NCBI GenBank assembly: GCA_900299055.1
Contig: OMII01000062.1
Location: forward strand, 1 to 37,886
Length of the DNA: 37,886 bases
Origin: Pseudomonadota bacterium
Lineage (GTDB): Bacteria > Bdellovibrionota_C > UBA2361 > OMII01
Direction of reading: 5' to 3'
This document shows positions 20,282 through 30,609 of this stretch, one piece after another (the first letter of the stretch is position 1; the number at the start of each line of letters is the position of its first letter). The notes beneath the pieces are model-generated. The model saw only the letters and a list, made by a program, of their open reading frames with translations. It ran no database searches and had not been told where the DNA came from. The position numbers and the translations under genes are program-made.

Positions 20282-21157
20282 ATGTCCGACGTGCCCTCAG
20301 TGAACGAGCAGATTGCGCAGGCCTGGTCCAGGGTTCCGGCGGGCGAACGGCGTGAACTCGCAACCCGAGCCAACCTTAAAGGTGCACAGGCGTGCCTGCT
20401 AGCACTACTCTTCGGCACTACCCTCGCTTTTTGCTTCAAGGAAAACACTATCCTTCTAGGTATGCTAGCCTTGCTGCCAGTTTTGTATCAGGTTGTTGCG
20501 ACCCGTGAATGGATTGAGGGGAAACCCCGGCTGCCAATTAGCTACTTTGTAGCCGAAAAAGCCGCGGCCCAATACGCTCGTCACTACAACACGGCTGACG
20601 CATCCGTCAAAGTACTGTTCAAGGGTATTGTAACCCCGCCGACAGGCGCCATGCAGGAGCCCTCCCCTGGGGACTCACCGAAAAAGGTCAGTGTGTGGGT
20701 GGCTCTGTTTGGTGACCGTCTGATTATGTTCTCCGAACACCCAGAAGGTGCGCGCTTAGAGTTCTTGCAGTCACTTGGCGAGCAGCTCATCGTCTCATCG
20801 GACACCGCGGGCGATCCTGATATGGCCCCGGATATCATCTTCCTCGATGTGCGCTCGACGGATGTTGACGAGCCAACACGTTGGACTCTGCAAAGCATCT
20901 GCCCCCAAGCGCTCGCTACGTGTCTACGCAAGGTCCAGTTCTACTCCGAGCAGATCCGAGCAGAGAAGCAGCGACGAGCTGCGCTGGCTGCCGAGAAAGC
21001 TCGGCTTGAGCAAGAAAGGCTTGAGTTGCGCCGTCAGGAGCTGCTTCGCATCGAGGAGGAGCGCCAGGCCCACGAACTAGCAAAACGACAGCAGCTTAAT
21101 GAGGAGCTAGCGGAGAAAGCTCCTACGAAGCCAGAACCTGCGGCTCCACACCCCTAG
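20282..21157 (+). CDS. Hypothetical membrane protein with C-terminal coiled coil
   Basis: 291-aa ORF between well-supported genes; two hydrophobic stretches (ACLLALLFGTTLAFCF, TILLGMLALLPVLYQVV); C-terminal charged repeat RAALAAEKARLEQERLELRRQELLRIEEERQ. Confidence 0.75.
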   Translation: MSDVPSVNEQIAQAWSRVPAGERRELATRANLKGAQACLLALLFGTTLAFCFKENTILLGMLALLPVLYQVVATREWIEGKPRLPISYFVAEKAAAQYARHYNTADASVKVLFKGIVTPPTGAMQEPSPGDSPKKVSVWVALFGDRLIMFSEHPEGARLEFLQSLGEQLIVSSDTAGDPDMAPDIIFLDVRSTDVDEPTRWTLQSICPQALATCLRKVQFYSEQIRAEKQRRAALAAEKARLEQERLELRRQELLRIEEERQAHELAKRQQLNEELAEKAPTKPEPAAPHP

Positions 21158-22612: not shown

Positions 22613-22676
22613 CTACCCGGTCAAACTGAATCGAATAGAGCAGTGACCTTCCTTGGAGCGGAGCTCTCTCGTGGTC

Positions 22677-22697
22677 CTATTTTTCTCTTAAAAATAG
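22677..22697. promoter_or_regulatory. AT-rich inverted repeat upstream of the 783-aa protein gene
   Basis: CTATTTTT-ctctt-AAAAATAG, perfect 8-bp arms. Confidence 0.4.
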
Positions 22698-22744
22698 CCA
22701 TCTGGCGTGATACTGTCTCGCTGATTTTCTGAACGCGGGCTGCA

Positions 22745-25096
22745 ATGTCCTCTCGATCACCTCAATCTACGTATGACCCCGCGCTTGCAGAGCGATTGGT
22801 AGGCCTCATCGAGGCCGGGCAGGATTCTGCCGCGCTGCACCAGCTATCAGCAGCCCCGTCGAGCCTACGAGCCGAGGCCGCGCGTGAGTTCCTTTGGAGA
22901 GGAGATGATCAGGGATACCAGTCGGCAAAGACGCTGGTGCGCCAAGGGACATTAGCGCCGGAGGAGCTTCGCTCGATCTTCTCTGCCGCCGCTGAATGTG
23001 GCGAAACAAGGATGCTCAAGCTCATCGCCTCAACGAGCCCAGAGGCAATTGAAGCCGGAACGATTCGAAACGCCCTTCTCGGCGCACTCTACAACTCGCA
23101 GACTGCGAGCATCAGCTGGATCGCTGACACCGAATTATTATCAGTGGAGTCCAAGTATCGAGCTATCGTCCCTCCTCTTTTTAAATCTTCCGAGGAACAT
23201 CGCGGAAGCCTCCAAGCCCGTAATGAGCTAGGCACCGCGGAGATAATCATCACCAAACAGTACCGCGACGCCCAATACGAGCTGCGTCAGCAGCGACGTC
23301 AAGCGCTCCGAACTCAAGAAGAGCCCTCTGCAGCGGAGAAGCGACAACTACGAATTGAGCGAAAGTTCTCAACGCTCCTGAGCAGAGCGATTAATCAGAT
23401 CCGTAGTCATCGACAGCGCCACACCGCAGAGCTGCAGGGCGATGAGCTACGCAATCACCGCGAGATCACTGCACTGCTGATTGAACAAGTAACGCGGGAA
23501 GTTCAGCGTCAACGCGAAGTCGCCCTCATAGAGAGGCCTGAGGCCACCCGCAATCAGAAGCCACATCGGCCATTTGAGGTCACTACATGGCGGGCAACAA
23601 ACCCAGACGGGCACGAGAACTCTCCATCTTTCGCTGAAATGTTAGAGAACTTCTTTCACGCAAACTTCGGGCCAAGGGGCGGAGAAGTAAGAACTTTCGA
23701 CAGTTTTATTGACACGGTCCTCTCAACCTGGGGCGCAAACAATCGCCCACTTTCTCGCGAGTCGCTATGCAGACTCATTGAGAAGAAGCATCCCCAGAAC
23801 GCCAGACTCACCAACAGCGTCTTTTACCAGTGGAGAAACTATCAGAACCAAACTCCAAGTACCGAATCAATCATGACGCTTGTGGCAGCGTTTAATCTCA
23901 ATAAGATTCATGAACTCCTGCTATTCCGAATCGCAAAAGGCACGCCTTGCCACGACGTTGAAACCCTAGTGAGTCGAGCTGAAGACGCCTTAAGAACTCC
24001 AGAAGAAGCAAGAACCCGAGGAGAGCTGTTCACGGCGATCACTGAAGCGTCTGGAATCCCTCTTGTAAACCTCACGAGCGTTCTCGGAGTACATCAAATC
24101 CATATGTGGAAGCGAGGACAGCGGATCGAGGATCCCGCGGTGGTGAGCACCCTCGTAGACCTCATACATCCGGTCGACATATACCCCAAGGAAGAGTTCG
24201 AATCGGCACAGGCCCTCAGCGCTCGAATCAAAGCTATCCTTGGTGGGCGGTCTGCATCAGTCCTTGATGCGGTATTCTTAGCCGAGCGGTCAACCGTGGC
24301 AAATCCAGGCGGCTTACTATTCTCGTTACTCGTCGGCGGACGAGGCATTATGCCCTTATCAGAGAATGCCGCGGCCTCACTACTTGGAGTAACTGAGGGC
24401 AAGGTACGGCGCATGGCGAGACCCTCGCCATGTCGTGGCGGAGAGATAACTGAATCCATCGCTTCTGCGACACTGGATTACGTCCAGGGAGTAACCCCGT
24501 CTACGCGAAATCTCTTATCACCGATTCAAAAAGCAGAGCGAGATCTCGCGCTTGATATTCTTACTGGCGTTCCTTCACCAATTCGACTCCTTATGAAGGC
24601 ATCTCGCGGTGAGTTGTCTCACGCTGGAGAGATCCATCGCTTAACTCGGCAACGTAGAGGCGTTCTACAAGAGTGGGGGTTAAGTGACTTCGAACTCGGT
24701 AAAGCAACCATCACCGCCTCTCGAGCCTCGGCGATGGCTAAATGGCTCGGATTTGTAGGCCCTCAACACCAGGAGTCTCGACGCTTATTCATAACGATGG
24801 CAACAGGGACCCACTCCCAGGAGACTCCATCTCAGATCCTTGACGACATTATCTCCGGCAAAGTAGAGCGACACATTGGAGTCCAGAAGTTTTTTGACTG
24901 GACAGGCCTTACTCGCGCAGAACTCGCCCGGAGAATTGGAGCAAGCAGGACTAGCGGAGCTTCATACACAAGCGCACAACGTGCTGGACGAATATTCAAT
25001 CAAACGCACCTTAGTCTTCTGGCGGAGGAATTGGGCTTGCGTCATCGGTTCGATGAGCTAGTCTCTGTTTTCACCCCTAAGAAATACACACCGTAG
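22745..25096 (+). CDS. Large hypothetical protein with coiled-coil and several degenerate HTH/XRE-like modules
   Basis: 783 aa; modules such as LCRLIEKKHPQNARLTNSVFYQWRNYQNQTPSTESIMTLVAAF, AITEASGIPLVNLTSVLGVHQIHMWKRGQRIEDPAVVSTLVDLI, LTRAELARRIGASRTSGASYTSAQRAGRIFNQTHLSLLAEELGL look like helix-turn-helix units. Confidence 0.75.
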   Translation: MSSRSPQSTYDPALAERLVGLIEAGQDSAALHQLSAAPSSLRAEAAREFLWRGDDQGYQSAKTLVRQGTLAPEELRSIFSAAAECGETRMLKLIASTSPEAIEAGTIRNALLGALYNSQTASISWIADTELLSVESKYRAIVPPLFKSSEEHRGSLQARNELGTAEIIITKQYRDAQYELRQQRRQALRTQEEPSAAEKRQLRIERKFSTLLSRAINQIRSHRQRHTAELQGDELRNHREITALLIEQVTREVQRQREVALIERPEATRNQKPHRPFEVTTWRATNPDGHENSPSFAEMLENFFHANFGPRGGEVRTFDSFIDTVLSTWGANNRPLSRESLCRLIEKKHPQNARLTNSVFYQWRNYQNQTPSTESIMTLVAAFNLNKIHELLLFRIAKGTPCHDVETLVSRAEDALRTPEEARTRGELFTAITEASGIPLVNLTSVLGVHQIHMWKRGQRIEDPAVVSTLVDLIHPVDIYPKEEFESAQALSARIKAILGGRSASVLDAVFLAERSTVANPGGLLFSLLVGGRGIMPLSENAAASLLGVTEGKVRRMARPSPCRGGEITESIASATLDYVQGVTPSTRNLLSPIQKAERDLALDILTGVPSPIRLLMKASRGELSHAGEIHRLTRQRRGVLQEWGLSDFELGKATITASRASAMAKWLGFVGPQHQESRRLFITMATGTHSQETPSQILDDIISGKVERHIGVQKFFDWTGLTRAELARRIGASRTSGASYTSAQRAGRIFNQTHLSLLAEELGLRHRFDELVSVFTPKKYTP

Positions 25097-25119
25097 CGCA
25101 GACATACCACAGGATTGCA

Positions 25120-25869
25120 GTGGCTTGGCGAACACCACCAAAAGAGCAGCGACAAAAACTCAAGCTGCAACGGGAGCTCAGCCGCCGACGGCTGATCGAA
25201 CGGACCGAGGACGACGCAATCTTCGCCGCGTGCGCGTACATAACCAACGCAGATGGACCACCGAGCCGGAGCGAGGAATCGTTTATTCTTGACTACCTAG
25301 CCAGCTGCAGCCGTGGCGAAGGCGACTATGTCCGAGTTACAGCAGCGTCTGTTGCCGCCGTTACCAAAGATCTCGCCACCACAAAGCTTCGCTCATACCG
25401 AGCAGCCTGTCGCGTCTCAATCACCAAACAACGGCGCCTCATCGATGGTCTTCTACGGTTAGCTGCGTGCGACAAACCACTCAACGAACTCGAGCAGAGA
25501 GCCTTACACGAGATCGCTGAAGCGCTTGGTTTTCCCGTTGAGAAGCACGCGACTCTTCGCAGGCATCTAGGAGTCCCCCGGTCAACGTCAACCAAGACCA
25601 CTCGATCAGAGGACCCTCGCAGAGCACAGAAAGCGAAGCCTGCTGCGCCCTCGCCTCACCAGTGGTGCTATGACACCCTAGGGTGCACCGAGAAAGACTC
25701 CGATGAGACCGTAAAACGAGCCTACAGAAGGCTTGCAGCGAAGCTTCACCCAGACAAGCACGCAGGAGGCACGCGCACATCGGAATCAATCCTCGTCTAT
25801 CAGCGCGATTTCCAGAAGCTTCAGGACGCCTATGCGGCCTTGAAGCGAGTGCGCCCAACGCTGCGCTAG
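25120..25869 (+). CDS. TerB-like N-terminus plus C-terminal J-domain protein (soluble DjlA-like)
   Basis: DDAIFAACAYITNADGPPSRSEESFILDYL...LLRLAACDKPLNELEQRALHEIAEALGF resembles TerB; YDTLGCTEKDSDETVKRAYRRLAAKLHPDKHAGG...FQKLQDAYAALK is a J-domain with HPD. GTG start 23 nt after previous stop. Confidence 0.85.
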   Translation: MAWRTPPKEQRQKLKLQRELSRRRLIERTEDDAIFAACAYITNADGPPSRSEESFILDYLASCSRGEGDYVRVTAASVAAVTKDLATTKLRSYRAACRVSITKQRRLIDGLLRLAACDKPLNELEQRALHEIAEALGFPVEKHATLRRHLGVPRSTSTKTTRSEDPRRAQKAKPAAPSPHQWCYDTLGCTEKDSDETVKRAYRRLAAKLHPDKHAGGTRTSESILVYQRDFQKLQDAYAALKRVRPTLR

Positions 25870-25910
25870 CATGAAGACATCAATAGCTGAGCCTGGGAGA
25901 ACAGCGAGGA

Positions 25911-27368
25911 TTACAGTCTCTCAATTTTAAGTGAGTCTCCGACAACCTTAAGTAGACTGCCCTTGCCATTAATACTGGTCTCGAGCACTACCTCTCGCTC
26001 CCAGAGCCTTGCCACGTGTTTAAGGGTGTGGTCTGCGTATTCAAGCTGCAAATCTCGACCATCATGGTAATGCTTAAGGTAGAGGGTCCTGTTGCGGCCA
26101 AAATCGGCATCTTCGACCTTAATAACCGGAATCGAGCCTGTGCCCACGCTCTTAATGAGGGTGTCGCGAACGTCTTTCCATCCCTCTTCGTTGGAAACTT
26201 TGGTTACCACGCGCTCTTTTCCACGTCTGTCATGCTGGAAAAGATTAAGCTCTTCCATCAAGTCTTTCGTGAGAAAACGCCGGAGGAAGGACTGATCTCG
26301 ATCAGATTCACGCACTTCAAAGATCTTTTTTCGACCTGGCGTGTCATTTTCATCTTGGCCCGCTTGGGCGCGCGGAGGCTCGTCATCGCTCCACTCTTTA
26401 CCTGTGTCACCCTGATTCCACCTTCGCTCAATGTCATGCCACATGACAAACCCCAGGTGATACGGATTCAATCCTCCTGGATGGGGGCGCAGCACCTGAT
26501 TGTGCCGAACGAGCAACTCAAGGTGCATATCCTGCGGGAGCTTAAGCTCATTTAATATCTTGTGGTGCCAGTAACTCGCCCACCCCTCGTTCATGATCTT
26601 GGTCTCCATCTGGGGCATGAAGTACTGCGTCTGCTGGTCGACTATCTGCAAGATATCTTGCTTCCACTCTGGAAGGTACGGATTGTACGCGGCTATGAAT
26701 TGAAGCAGATTCTCCTGTGGCTCTGCTGGCGTCTTGGTCAAATTCGGCGCTACATATTCAGGAGATGGATGAATCTCTCGCCATGGGTCCGGTGCCGGCT
26801 GTGCCCTCTCCCATGCTCGCACACGCTGCTCTGCATCGGATAGTTGGCGAATCGCCAAGTTTCTTGAGCGCTGGTAGCAAATAGCATGGGCGTGATCGAT
26901 AGCGTCTTCAACTGCCTCGATACCAATTGAAGGATCCTCTTGGTAACTAGCGATTCGATTTGCTCCATTCTTAAACATCTCCAGAACGTGTCGAGCGTCT
27001 GTTCCACTGGTGAACGTAAAGTTATTGGCAAAAAAGTCATTATGGCCATACACGTGCGCTATTGTGAGCACCTGCAGCAACAAGGAATTATCGCGCATGA
27101 GGTAGGCAAGACACGGATTGGAATTTATCACCATCTCATATGGCAAGCCCGACACACCGTAGTCGTACATCGTCTTTTGGCGTTCATACGATTTCCCATA
27201 TGACCAGTGTGGGTAATGCGAGGGCATTCCAGTGTACGCCATGTACCCTAGCATCTCGTTATGATCACAAACCTCAAACTCCTGCGGGTAGCAATTCAGG
27301 CCGTAGCGACGTACGAGCTCTTGAATTCTCTCATCCCAAACCGCTAATTCTTCAACATTAAATGACAT
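25911..27368 (-). CDS. spoVR: SpoVR family protein (YcgB-like)
   Basis: WDERIQELVRRYGLNCYPQEFEVCDHNEMLGYMAYTGMPSHYPHWSYGKSYERQKTMYDYGVSGLPYEMVINSNPCLAYLMRDN; NEGWASYWHHKIL. Confidence 0.96.
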   Translation of the reverse strand: MSFNVEELAVWDERIQELVRRYGLNCYPQEFEVCDHNEMLGYMAYTGMPSHYPHWSYGKSYERQKTMYDYGVSGLPYEMVINSNPCLAYLMRDNSLLLQVLTIAHVYGHNDFFANNFTFTSGTDARHVLEMFKNGANRIASYQEDPSIGIEAVEDAIDHAHAICYQRSRNLAIRQLSDAEQRVRAWERAQPAPDPWREIHPSPEYVAPNLTKTPAEPQENLLQFIAAYNPYLPEWKQDILQIVDQQTQYFMPQMETKIMNEGWASYWHHKILNELKLPQDMHLELLVRHNQVLRPHPGGLNPYHLGFVMWHDIERRWNQGDTGKEWSDDEPPRAQAGQDENDTPGRKKIFEVRESDRDQSFLRRFLTKDLMEELNLFQHDRRGKERVVTKVSNEEGWKDVRDTLIKSVGTGSIPVIKVEDADFGRNRTLYLKHYHDGRDLQLEYADHTLKHVARLWEREVVLETSINGKGSLLKVVGDSLKIERL

Positions 27369-27374
27369 AGTTCC

Positions 27375-28610
27375 TTATGGAGCTGCGGCTGCTGCACCTT
27401 CACTACTACCAAACACTTTACCGTGCGCTGATACACCACTCGCTTTATCTTTCATCAGAAAACTGCGAAATCCTTCCCACAAGTCCTCTTTCTTTTCGAT
27501 GGTGATCATGTGGAAGTTCTGTGCCTGTATCTGCCCGAACACCTCCAGCATACTTCCGCTATAATATGCGCTGCCTGATGGCTTAATCTCTCCGTAGCCG
27601 AAGAGATTGCACACTTTACACAACTCCTCCGCAGCTTGGAGCGCACGTTCATTATCTGAATAAAAGTTGTCGCCATCAGAGCAGTGAAATGCGTATATGT
27701 TCCACAAAGACGGATGATACCTGTCGTTGATGATGTCCAGTGCCTTGCGATACCCGGAGGAGATGTAGGTACCTCCCGATTCAACTTTATGAAAAAAGTC
27801 TCCCTCTGGAACCTCTTTAGCCTCTGTATGGTGAGCTATGAATACAACTTCAACGTTTGCGTACTTCTGTCGAACAAACTGATACAGAAGAAAGTAGAAG
27901 CTCCGCGCGAGGTACTTTTTCACCGTACCCATCGAGCCTGATGTATCCATGATGCAGAACACGACAGCATTGGAAGCTTCTCGCGTAGTTGGAGCTATGT
28001 GAAAAAAGCTCATGTCGTCTTCATGAAAAGGGAAACGCTGCTCACCTTCCTTGATCGCCTCTCCGCGAGTGCCCTTGACGGACAACATCCGACGCACTCG
28101 ATTACGAGCCGTAGCACGCTTGTCTAGGCGCGGTCTGATACCAGCTTTTCGATGACCTTTTCGCTTGCGCGCATCGTCTGACATTACCTTCTTGAGAGCC
28201 TTGCGCTCGAGCTCAGGGAGCTCAAGGTCATCGAACATGATCGCAATAAGCTCCTCGAGCGTGATGTCAGTCTCAAACGCATCGACACCAGCTTGGCTTC
28301 CGGCGCCTTGACCCTGCCCCTGTCCGTCTTGTCCCCCCTGATCGACAACATCACCGGGCTTTTGATTACCATCACCTTGGGCGGCTCCAGGGGAATTGTC
28401 GCCATAGATGAAGCGATACTCTTTTACTGAGCGAATCGGGACCTTGATGATCTTGTCTCTGTCGCGGCCTATGATCGATTCCTCGGCCAGGATATCTCCG
28501 ATGTTATCGCGAATGGAGTCCTTAATCTTTTGGCGATGCCGCATCCGATCTCTGGCGCTCCGGTCAGATCGCTGTGAGGTCGGAACATACGGACGAAAGA
28601 TTGTCGACAT
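27375..28610 (-). CDS. DUF444 family protein (YeaH/YhbH), VWA-like
   Basis: GDGNQKPGDVVDQGG; ITLEELIAIMFDDLELPELERKALK; VVFCIMDTSGSMGTVKKYLARSFYFLLYQFVRQKYANVEVVFIAHHTEAKEV; GGTYISSGYRKALDII. Confidence 0.95.
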   Translation of the reverse strand: MSTIFRPYVPTSQRSDRSARDRMRHRQKIKDSIRDNIGDILAEESIIGRDRDKIIKVPIRSVKEYRFIYGDNSPGAAQGDGNQKPGDVVDQGGQDGQGQGQGAGSQAGVDAFETDITLEELIAIMFDDLELPELERKALKKVMSDDARKRKGHRKAGIRPRLDKRATARNRVRRMLSVKGTRGEAIKEGEQRFPFHEDDMSFFHIAPTTREASNAVVFCIMDTSGSMGTVKKYLARSFYFLLYQFVRQKYANVEVVFIAHHTEAKEVPEGDFFHKVESGGTYISSGYRKALDIINDRYHPSLWNIYAFHCSDGDNFYSDNERALQAAEELCKVCNLFGYGEIKPSGSAYYSGSMLEVFGQIQAQNFHMITIEKKEDLWEGFRSFLMKDKASGVSAHGKVFGSSEGAAAAAP

Positions 28611-28680
28611 ACGAGCTACGAGCTCCCTACACGAATCAGATCACCAGAAGACGACTCACCATCCATCATGCGACGGGTGG

Positions 28681-30609
28681 CTAGTCCTTCCAGAGGTTAT
28701 TCGCCGCGTACTTCAAAATTACATCAACACAACTGGCTGGGTATCCGTTTCGAATTAACTGTTCGACCATACGGCCATACTTCTTATGTTGGTCGTCATC
28801 GCGGGTTCGAGCCTTAGTGATAATTCTCGAGACATCGCGCACACTCGCCATGAGCTTCTTCTCGATAGCTTCCTTGAGTGGCTCGTAGCACTCATACGAA
28901 ACCTTCTCCCCCCGACGCCCGGCAGACCAGAGATAGGCGATAACCTCCTGCCGGAAACCGTCACAAGCAGTTCCGATTATTGCGATCTGCTCCTCTATCG
29001 ACTTCATGAATCCCTCATCGGGCTCCAGCACCTCTCCGGTACTCCTATCCTTAAACTTCTTCTTCGTCACGTATGACTCCGCATGGTCGAGATAGTTCTG
29101 GAACAGCGCTTCGGCCTGCTCTTGATACGAATAGACAAACGCCTTCGTAATCTCCTTCTCAAGAACCTCGAGATATTCCTTGTGCAGAGTATCTTGCAGG
29201 AACTCAAGGTAGCGCTTCTTCACATCATCCGGAAAATCCGCTTCCTTCACCATATGCACGAGAGACTCTCGCACCGAGATTGGATGGATGGCGTTTTGCT
29301 CAACGTTGTCCGACAGAGCGTTATCAAGCGCCTTCATGATGAAGCGCGTCGAGATACCATTCATCCCCTCGCTCTTCGCCTCTTCTCGCAGCTCTACAAC
29401 ATCGATGCGCTTTGTCTTACCTTTCTCTACAACTTCTTCACCGTTATAGAGCTTTAATTTTGTCATCAGATCGCATTTATTTGTCGGCTCAAGTCGCGAC
29501 AAAATAGCGAACATCGACGCGATTTCAATGGTATGAGGCGCGATATCAGCTGTGAATTGGGATTGTCGAATGATCTTTTTGTAAATCTTCACTTCTTCGG
29601 ACAGACGAAGATTATACGGCACTTTGACTGTCACAATACGATCAAGGATCGCCTCGTTGGTGTGATCGCTCTTAAACTTCTTCCACTCTGCTTCGTTAGA
29701 GTGCGCAACGATACAGGTGTCTACGTAGATCATTCCGTGTCGACCCGGCGCCGGAATCGACTTCTCTTGAGTTGCGGTGATCATCGCGTGGAGGTATTCG
29801 GTTTCGTTCTTGAATACCTCGATGAATTCGACCATTCCTCGATTACCGACGTTCAATGCGCCAGTGAGGTCTAGCACCCGAGGATCTCCCTCTGAATAGA
29901 GATCAAGTTTGGAGATATCTTCTCCTCCGATAAGCACGCTTGTGTCCTGGTTATTGGGATCGACTGGTGGAACGACGCCAACGCCGCGTTTTGCTCGAAT
30001 ACTGAAATCGTAGGTTCGTACGGGGAAGTCTTCCCACTTGCCTTGGTATTCTTCCTTGAGGCGATATCGACAAACCGGGCAGAGGTCTCCCTCGATCTCT
30101 ACGCCAAGCATCTTCGAGAACTCCTTGCGCAGGTGCCGCGGAACCAGGTGCAGGGGCTCCTCAAACATCGGACAGTTCTCGACAGCATGAAATGCCGAGA
30201 GCTGCTCTAACCCCTTCTTCAATCGCTCTACGAGTGAACTCTTTCCGGATCCTACAGGACCAACGAGATACAAGACTTGCCGGCTTTCCTCTCCCTTGAG
30301 GGACGCCGAATGAAAATATCGAACGATTTGATTAATCGTCTTCTCCATTCCGAAGAACTCGTCGGCGAAGAAGTTATAGACTTTTAGTTTCTCACCCTTG
30401 AAGATTCGCTTCAGGCGCGGATTCTGTTCAAGGTCAACTTCAACCATGCCCTGGTCGAAGAGCATATCGTAGAGGCGCTTGTGCGCGAGTTTATGCAACG
30501 ACGGATTCTCGCGTACGAGCTCCAGGTACTCAAGCATCGTACCTTTCCAAGAGGACTTCTTGCGAGTTTCACGGTCTTCTTGAATCAGCTTTTGGAATTC
30601 ATTGCTCAT
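28681..30609 (-). CDS. prkA: PrkA family serine protein kinase / AAA+ protein (YeaG-like)
   Basis: VYNFFADEFFGMEKTINQIVRYFHSASLKGEESRQVLYLVGPVGSGKSSLVERLKKGLE; NVGNRGMVEFIEVFKNETEYLHAMITATQEKSIPAPGRHGMIYVDTCIVAHSNEAEWKKF. Confidence 0.97.
   Translation of the reverse strand: MSNEFQKLIQEDRETRKKSSWKGTMLEYLELVRENPSLHKLAHKRLYDMLFDQGMVEVDLEQNPRLKRIFKGEKLKVYNFFADEFFGMEKTINQIVRYFHSASLKGEESRQVLYLVGPVGSGKSSLVERLKKGLEQLSAFHAVENCPMFEEPLHLVPRHLRKEFSKMLGVEIEGDLCPVCRYRLKEEYQGKWEDFPVRTYDFSIRAKRGVGVVPPVDPNNQDTSVLIGGEDISKLDLYSEGDPRVLDLTGALNVGNRGMVEFIEVFKNETEYLHAMITATQEKSIPAPGRHGMIYVDTCIVAHSNEAEWKKFKSDHTNEAILDRIVTVKVPYNLRLSEEVKIYKKIIRQSQFTADIAPHTIEIASMFAILSRLEPTNKCDLMTKLKLYNGEEVVEKGKTKRIDVVELREEAKSEGMNGISTRFIMKALDNALSDNVEQNAIHPISVRESLVHMVKEADFPDDVKKRYLEFLQDTLHKEYLEVLEKEITKAFVYSYQEQAEALFQNYLDHAESYVTKKKFKDRSTGEVLEPDEGFMKSIEEQIAIIGTACDGFRQEVIAYLWSAGRRGEKVSYECYEPLKEAIEKKLMASVRDVSRIITKARTRDDDQHKKYGRMVEQLIRNGYPASCVDVILKYAANNLWKD

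Follow-up and report, generated by a model that had tools for sequence, protein, structure and literature searches.

A candidate lineage-specific operon for a large, probably DNA-binding protein and a soluble TerB–J protein in an uncultured freshwater genus

RESULTS

Two adjoining genes upstream of a convergent spoVR

The window, by which we mean the whole stretch of 37,886 nucleotides that was analysed, carries two adjoining genes between an AMIN-domain gene and spoVR. The first encodes a large protein with predicted HTH modules and the second a protein that combines a TerB domain with a J domain. The features of the locus are as follows.

22613..25910, no strand: pair-bearing segment, from the AMIN-domain gene to spoVR; lineage-specific as judged by tblastn synteny of congeners and junction sequences
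22677..22697, no strand: palindrome CTATTTTT-N5-AAAAATAG, candidate autoregulatory operator
22677..22716, plus strand: upstream 40-nt block, made up of the palindrome and a GTGNTAC box (22707–22713), conserved in three species
22745–25096, plus strand: gene of the large HTH protein, ATG start, 783 aa, genus-restricted family
22772..23194, plus strand: N-terminal helical solenoid, residues 10–150, ankyrin-like by fold comparison only, pLDDT mostly 80–91
23210..23530, plus strand: long charged helices, residues 156–262, from the AF2 model and conservation; least conserved part
23696..23944, plus strand: helical module 1, residues 318–400, HTH-like by motif only, no Pfam support
23999..24184, plus strand: helical module 2, residues 419–480, XRE-like WKRGQ motif only, no Pfam support
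24302..24514, plus strand: helical module 3, residues 520–590, HTH-like by helix order only
24560..24760, plus strand: helical module 4, residues 606–672, weak XRE support (HTH_3, E 0.022, G009 protein)
24860..25078, plus strand: module 5, residues 706–778, predicted XRE-type HTH
25120–25869, plus strand: gene of the soluble, DjlA-like TerB–J protein, GTG start, 249 aa
25213..25554, plus strand: TerB domain, residues 32–145 (PF05099, E 1.2e-8)
25666..25845, plus strand: J domain, residues 183–242 (PF00226, E 4.1e-12), HPD codons at 25747–25755
25911–27368, minus strand: spoVR, convergent to the gene pair

The sequence-only reading of this locus had described a co-directional pair separated by 23 nt and convergent to spoVR, and the open reading frames at 22745–25096 and 25120–25869, together with spoVR on the opposite strand (25911–27368), bear out both statements. 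The same two-gene order was found at the same place in a sister species (G001, contig CAIVDM010000001.1), where the gap is shorter than 23 nt. Between the genome of the window (G000) and G001, differences amounted to 29, 22 and 64% at codon positions 1, 2 and 3 of the HTH gene and to 17, 11 and 54% in the J gene. Since these changes are strongly biased to the third position, both open reading frames are real coding genes, and they are under purifying selection. Divergence at synonymous sites has reached saturation in the HTH gene and approaches it in the J gene (dS 1.69, dN/dS about 0.09), and the two proteins are 62% and 75% identical, respectively, between the species.

On the far side of the pair spoVR, a yhbH-like gene (DUF444) and prkA follow one another (25911–30609). 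Their proteins are 95–99% identical to those of G001, a conservation far above that of the neighbouring genes. Upstream, at 20282–21157, lies a gene whose 291-aa product has a charged helix at its C-terminus and matches no Pfam family above the cut-off. It stands between the yifB/comM-like and AMIN genes in eight of the congeners examined, although identity is only 27–57%.

The second gene encodes a DjlA-like protein that lacks a membrane helix

Both TerB and DnaJ scored above the Pfam cut-off in the TerB–J protein and the HPD is intact at residues 210–212, as had been claimed from the sequence, and the claimed absence of a DjlA-type TM helix was likewise confirmed (best 19-residue hydropathy 0.67). 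The order of TerB followed by a C-terminal J domain is that of Escherichia coli DjlA. Unlike the latter, the protein has no N-terminal TM helix but a short basic helix at that end. The best specific model was NCBIfam DjlA, and because the score of 65.7 bits is below the 162-bit equivalog cut-off we file the protein as DjlA-like and not as DjlA.

The first gene encodes a large protein with a predicted XRE-type C-terminus

For the large protein no family was found above the curated cut-off in Pfam, NCBIfam or PADLOC, and a PDB sequence search gave no significant match. Judged at these curated cut-offs, the protein is outside all described families and previously undescribed. The AF2 models, the full-length one built from three sequences, were of middling confidence, both over the full length (pLDDT 70, pTM 0.35) and for the C-terminal 198 residues (pLDDT 69.5, pTM 0.48). 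The best-predicted part is the N-terminal solenoid (residues 10–150). When the full-length model was compared with viral models using Foldseek, many ankyrin proteins were listed, none of them at E<=0.001. Residues 151–275, which include the long charged helices, are 18% identical across the three species in which the protein was found.

The description of this protein as multi-HTH held for its C-terminal end, where module 5 and, weakly, module 4 match XRE-type HTH models. Among the three family members, the best Xre-like-HTH match of module 5 had E 1.2e-4; the segment used alone gave 0.0015, and the match in the G000 protein was below the curated cut-off. Module 5 also matched a PHROG transcriptional regulator at E 9e-4. 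Module 4 is the most conserved of the five modules, with 54% identity across all three species. For modules 1–3 Pfam gave no statistical support for HTH, and their assignment comes from motif and predicted helix layout. The helix order in the AF2 models is compatible with HTH modules; hhalign with three-sequence profiles detected no homology among them. In the Foldseek comparison of the C-terminal model the XRE structures 2b5a and 3eus were listed, but at E 5–10, and neither the full-length nor the C-terminal model had a fold match at E<=0.001. Taken by its sequence, the large protein probably binds DNA.

A conserved palindrome precedes the HTH gene in three species

In the palindrome that had been pointed out at 22677–22697 the two 8-nt arms pair perfectly around a 5-nt loop. 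Viewed in isolation the palindrome is at chance level, with five comparable inverted repeats in 3.4 kb; it rises above chance because it is conserved upstream of three homologues, not as a single sequence. In G001 the arms read GTCTTTTT...AAAAAGAC, so that the changes relative to CTATTTTT/AAAAATAG in G000 are compensatory. The block is also present upstream of the HTH gene of the third species (G009), at an unrelated locus, with a weaker palindrome that is kept in part. Over the 40-nt block 21 of 40 positions are identical in all three species, compared with at best 15 of 40 in 200 shuffled triples. Pairs that match poorly are passed over in this search, so that the mean of the shuffles is lowered and some weak triples may have been missed. 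This conserved palindrome is the strongest new evidence at the locus.

A search of the genome found no second site as good as the palindrome. Sites with up to 3 mismatches were no commoner in G000, G001 and G009 than a reversed control pattern, so no regulon can be claimed. No sigma-70-like promoter at the palindrome passed the scan. We rejected the palindrome as a terminator, since it has no G+C-rich stem with a T run and was not among the terminator-like sites; its absence from the empty site of G008, a congener that lacks the pair at this junction, further rules against that reading. Because the block precedes all three HTH genes, with compensated arms and no equal second copy, the sequence pattern fits a self-operator and autoregulation. 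Alternatively, the palindrome may be an RNA hairpin in the leader.

The linked pair is confined to two sister species

Among 46 genomes of the phylum the HTH protein was confined to three (G000, G001 and G009), all of one genus. Single-protein and alignment searches of a genome contig database, which were pattern-seeded and may therefore miss distant relatives, gave matches only in records corresponding to G001 and G009. No match was obtained, at the sensitivity used, in IMG/VR, in phages or in plasmids, the last two searched with tblastn. The J protein is present in all three genomes with the HTH protein and in one of nine others (Fisher p 0.018, uncorrected for kinship), several of the congeners being incomplete (60–87%), so that not all absences are certain. 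In a PurL tree the pair-bearing genomes fell on two separate branches, and because the three genomes thus stand for two branches the evidence from co-occurrence is weak.

Adjacency of the two genes held in part: they adjoin in G000 and G001 and are unlinked in G009, where the J gene, about 33% identical, lies near mutS. In G004 a J gene was found without the HTH gene and is apparently split over two contig ends. Elsewhere in the phylum TerB–J proteins occur without the HTH partner. A comparison around the HTH gene of G009, made via a neighbouring aquaporin gene, gave no shared neighbourhood. Downstream of that HTH gene and convergent to it lies a 270-aa open reading frame of unknown kind (L035:9336-10148).

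At the corresponding chromosomal place the AMIN stop and the spoVR stop are about 15–17 nt apart, with no pair between them, in G008, G009 and G005, and the junction is also without the pair, at a wider spacing, in G002, G011 and G003. Since these six relatives carry the AMIN–spoVR junction without the pair, gene order indicates that the pair-bearing segment, about 3.3 kb long, belongs to the G000/G001 lineage alone. After the AMIN gene of G010, the flank that was retrieved contains no spoVR match but different sequence (L041 2560-4119), with an open reading frame that by eye resembles a carbon–nitrogen hydrolase. We also considered a mobile-element origin of the segment, which was not supported: there is no adjoining integrase, no duplicated target at the junctions and no GC shift.

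The sequence-only reading had proposed a new two-gene system. What stands of this is a compact operon kept by selection in two species; a general system does not, the HTH protein occurring in one genus only and its gene being unlinked to the J gene in G009. On these genome comparisons the pair is best described as a lineage-specific operon in two sister species, rather than as a conserved or widespread system.

DISCUSSION

We propose, with a probability of roughly 0.4, that the operon encodes a DNA-bound regulator and its dedicated co-chaperone, that it is autoregulated and that DnaK is brought to the regulator by the TerB–J protein as adaptor. The large protein would bind DNA via its C-terminal XRE-type HTH module or modules, would pair or assemble via the N-terminal solenoid and the long helices, and would repress or tune its own operon at the palindrome 22677–22697. 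The TerB–J protein would dock on the large protein, probably via TerB or the N-terminal basic helix, and its HPD J domain would recruit DnaK, so that the level of free DnaK could alter the assembly of the regulator or its release from DNA. The reading as a dedicated pair draws on a compact operon that has persisted although synonymous sites have come to, or close to, saturation, and the reading as a self-controlled gene on there being no equally good palindrome elsewhere in the genome. Counting against a co-chaperone and its regulator, most of the HTH modules are without statistical support. In G009, where the two genes lie apart, the pair would have no need of a shared operon. By analogy with the systems discussed below, control of the regulator by a chaperone is reasonable but unproven.

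Nearly as likely is a chance operon, in which a genus-specific DNA-binding protein that controls its own gene and a DjlA-like co-chaperone of general use came together in the ancestor of G000 and G001 and share a promoter with no mechanism between them. Such an arrangement would agree with the unlinked genes of G009, with the solitary J gene of G004, where the HTH gene was not found, and with the TerB–J proteins across the phylum that lack an HTH partner. It is harder to reconcile with a gene order that two heavily diverged species still share, and with the finding that no genome with the HTH protein lacks the J protein.

The sequence-only reading had also suggested a stress- or phage-response module, in which the pair would sense folding stress or infection and set off a protective programme, with targets of the HTH protein beyond its own operon. 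Although the patchy distribution and the otherwise empty junction resemble an accessory module, we consider this role improbable and found no support for it: PADLOC gave 0 matches for the pair, no defence or mobile genes adjoin it (those flanking genes that were scanned have housekeeping functions or are uncharacterised), phages, plasmids and IMG/VR gave no match, and in the absence of a second good operator site in the genome no regulon is visible. Least probable is that the large protein has a structural role on DNA, in the nucleoid or in the style of plasmid proteins, and that its assembly is remodelled by the J protein and DnaK, as the RepA or RepE initiators are remodelled by DnaK/DnaJ: the combination of a solenoid and long helices with several HTH-like modules in a single chain would suit such a role, but no replicon, partition or phage genes were found among the scanned neighbours, the setting is chromosomal, among housekeeping genes, and the conserved upstream palindrome suggests a regulator.

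Returning to the regulator with a dedicated co-chaperone, the closest arrangement is that of Helicobacter pylori, in which CbpA is encoded in the hspR operon (cbpA-hspR-rarA), binds HspR and hinders its DNA binding (PMC7074700). Common to both is a J protein in one operon with an HTH protein, predicted in our case. HspR, however, is a MerR-like repressor of chaperone operons, whereas the large protein here is a 783-aa XRE-like protein; CbpA is of the DnaJ/CbpA type and without TerB, whereas the J protein here is DjlA-like; and no other gene in this genome has an equally good palindrome. By this analogy the pair may work like an HspR/CbpA-type operon, but it is not a member of that type, because the large protein has no MerR/HspR match in Pfam or NCBIfam.

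In Caulobacter crescentus DjlA, which like the TerB–J protein here has no membrane anchor, associates with the repressor TipR at its operator and occupies that operator only when TipR is present (PMC10754441). The level of DjlA did not change the output of that promoter (PMC10754441), which counts against the mechanism proposed here. The Caulobacter djlA and tipR genes moreover lie far apart, whereas here the genes adjoin, and the main task of DjlA there is to assist the efflux pump; no TipR-family match was found for the large protein. A third comparison is AtcJ of Shewanella, a dedicated J protein that is encoded in the AtcABC operon and binds a partner encoded there (PMC6715715). The likeness lies in a J protein sharing an operon with a protein of unknown function. 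AtcJ differs in being short and without TerB; no known domains are present in its Atc partners, and the Atc phenotype concerns growth in the cold.

A more far-reaching form of the proposed mechanism would be a new type of regulator, in which one chain carries as many as five XRE-like HTH modules on an ankyrin-like solenoid, sits at a single self-operator and is remodelled by TerB–J/DnaK. We regard this as unlikely; if it were true, the operon would report free chaperone capacity without controlling the classical heat-shock genes.

The pair is a modest lead, and its reach is limited to three species of one uncultured freshwater genus for the HTH protein and to two sister species for the linked genes. 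If the mechanism of a regulator handled by its own co-chaperone is true, an XRE-like, possibly multi-module protein would join the few regulators that are handled directly by a J protein (HspR and TipR), and a soluble TerB–J protein would gain a concrete client.
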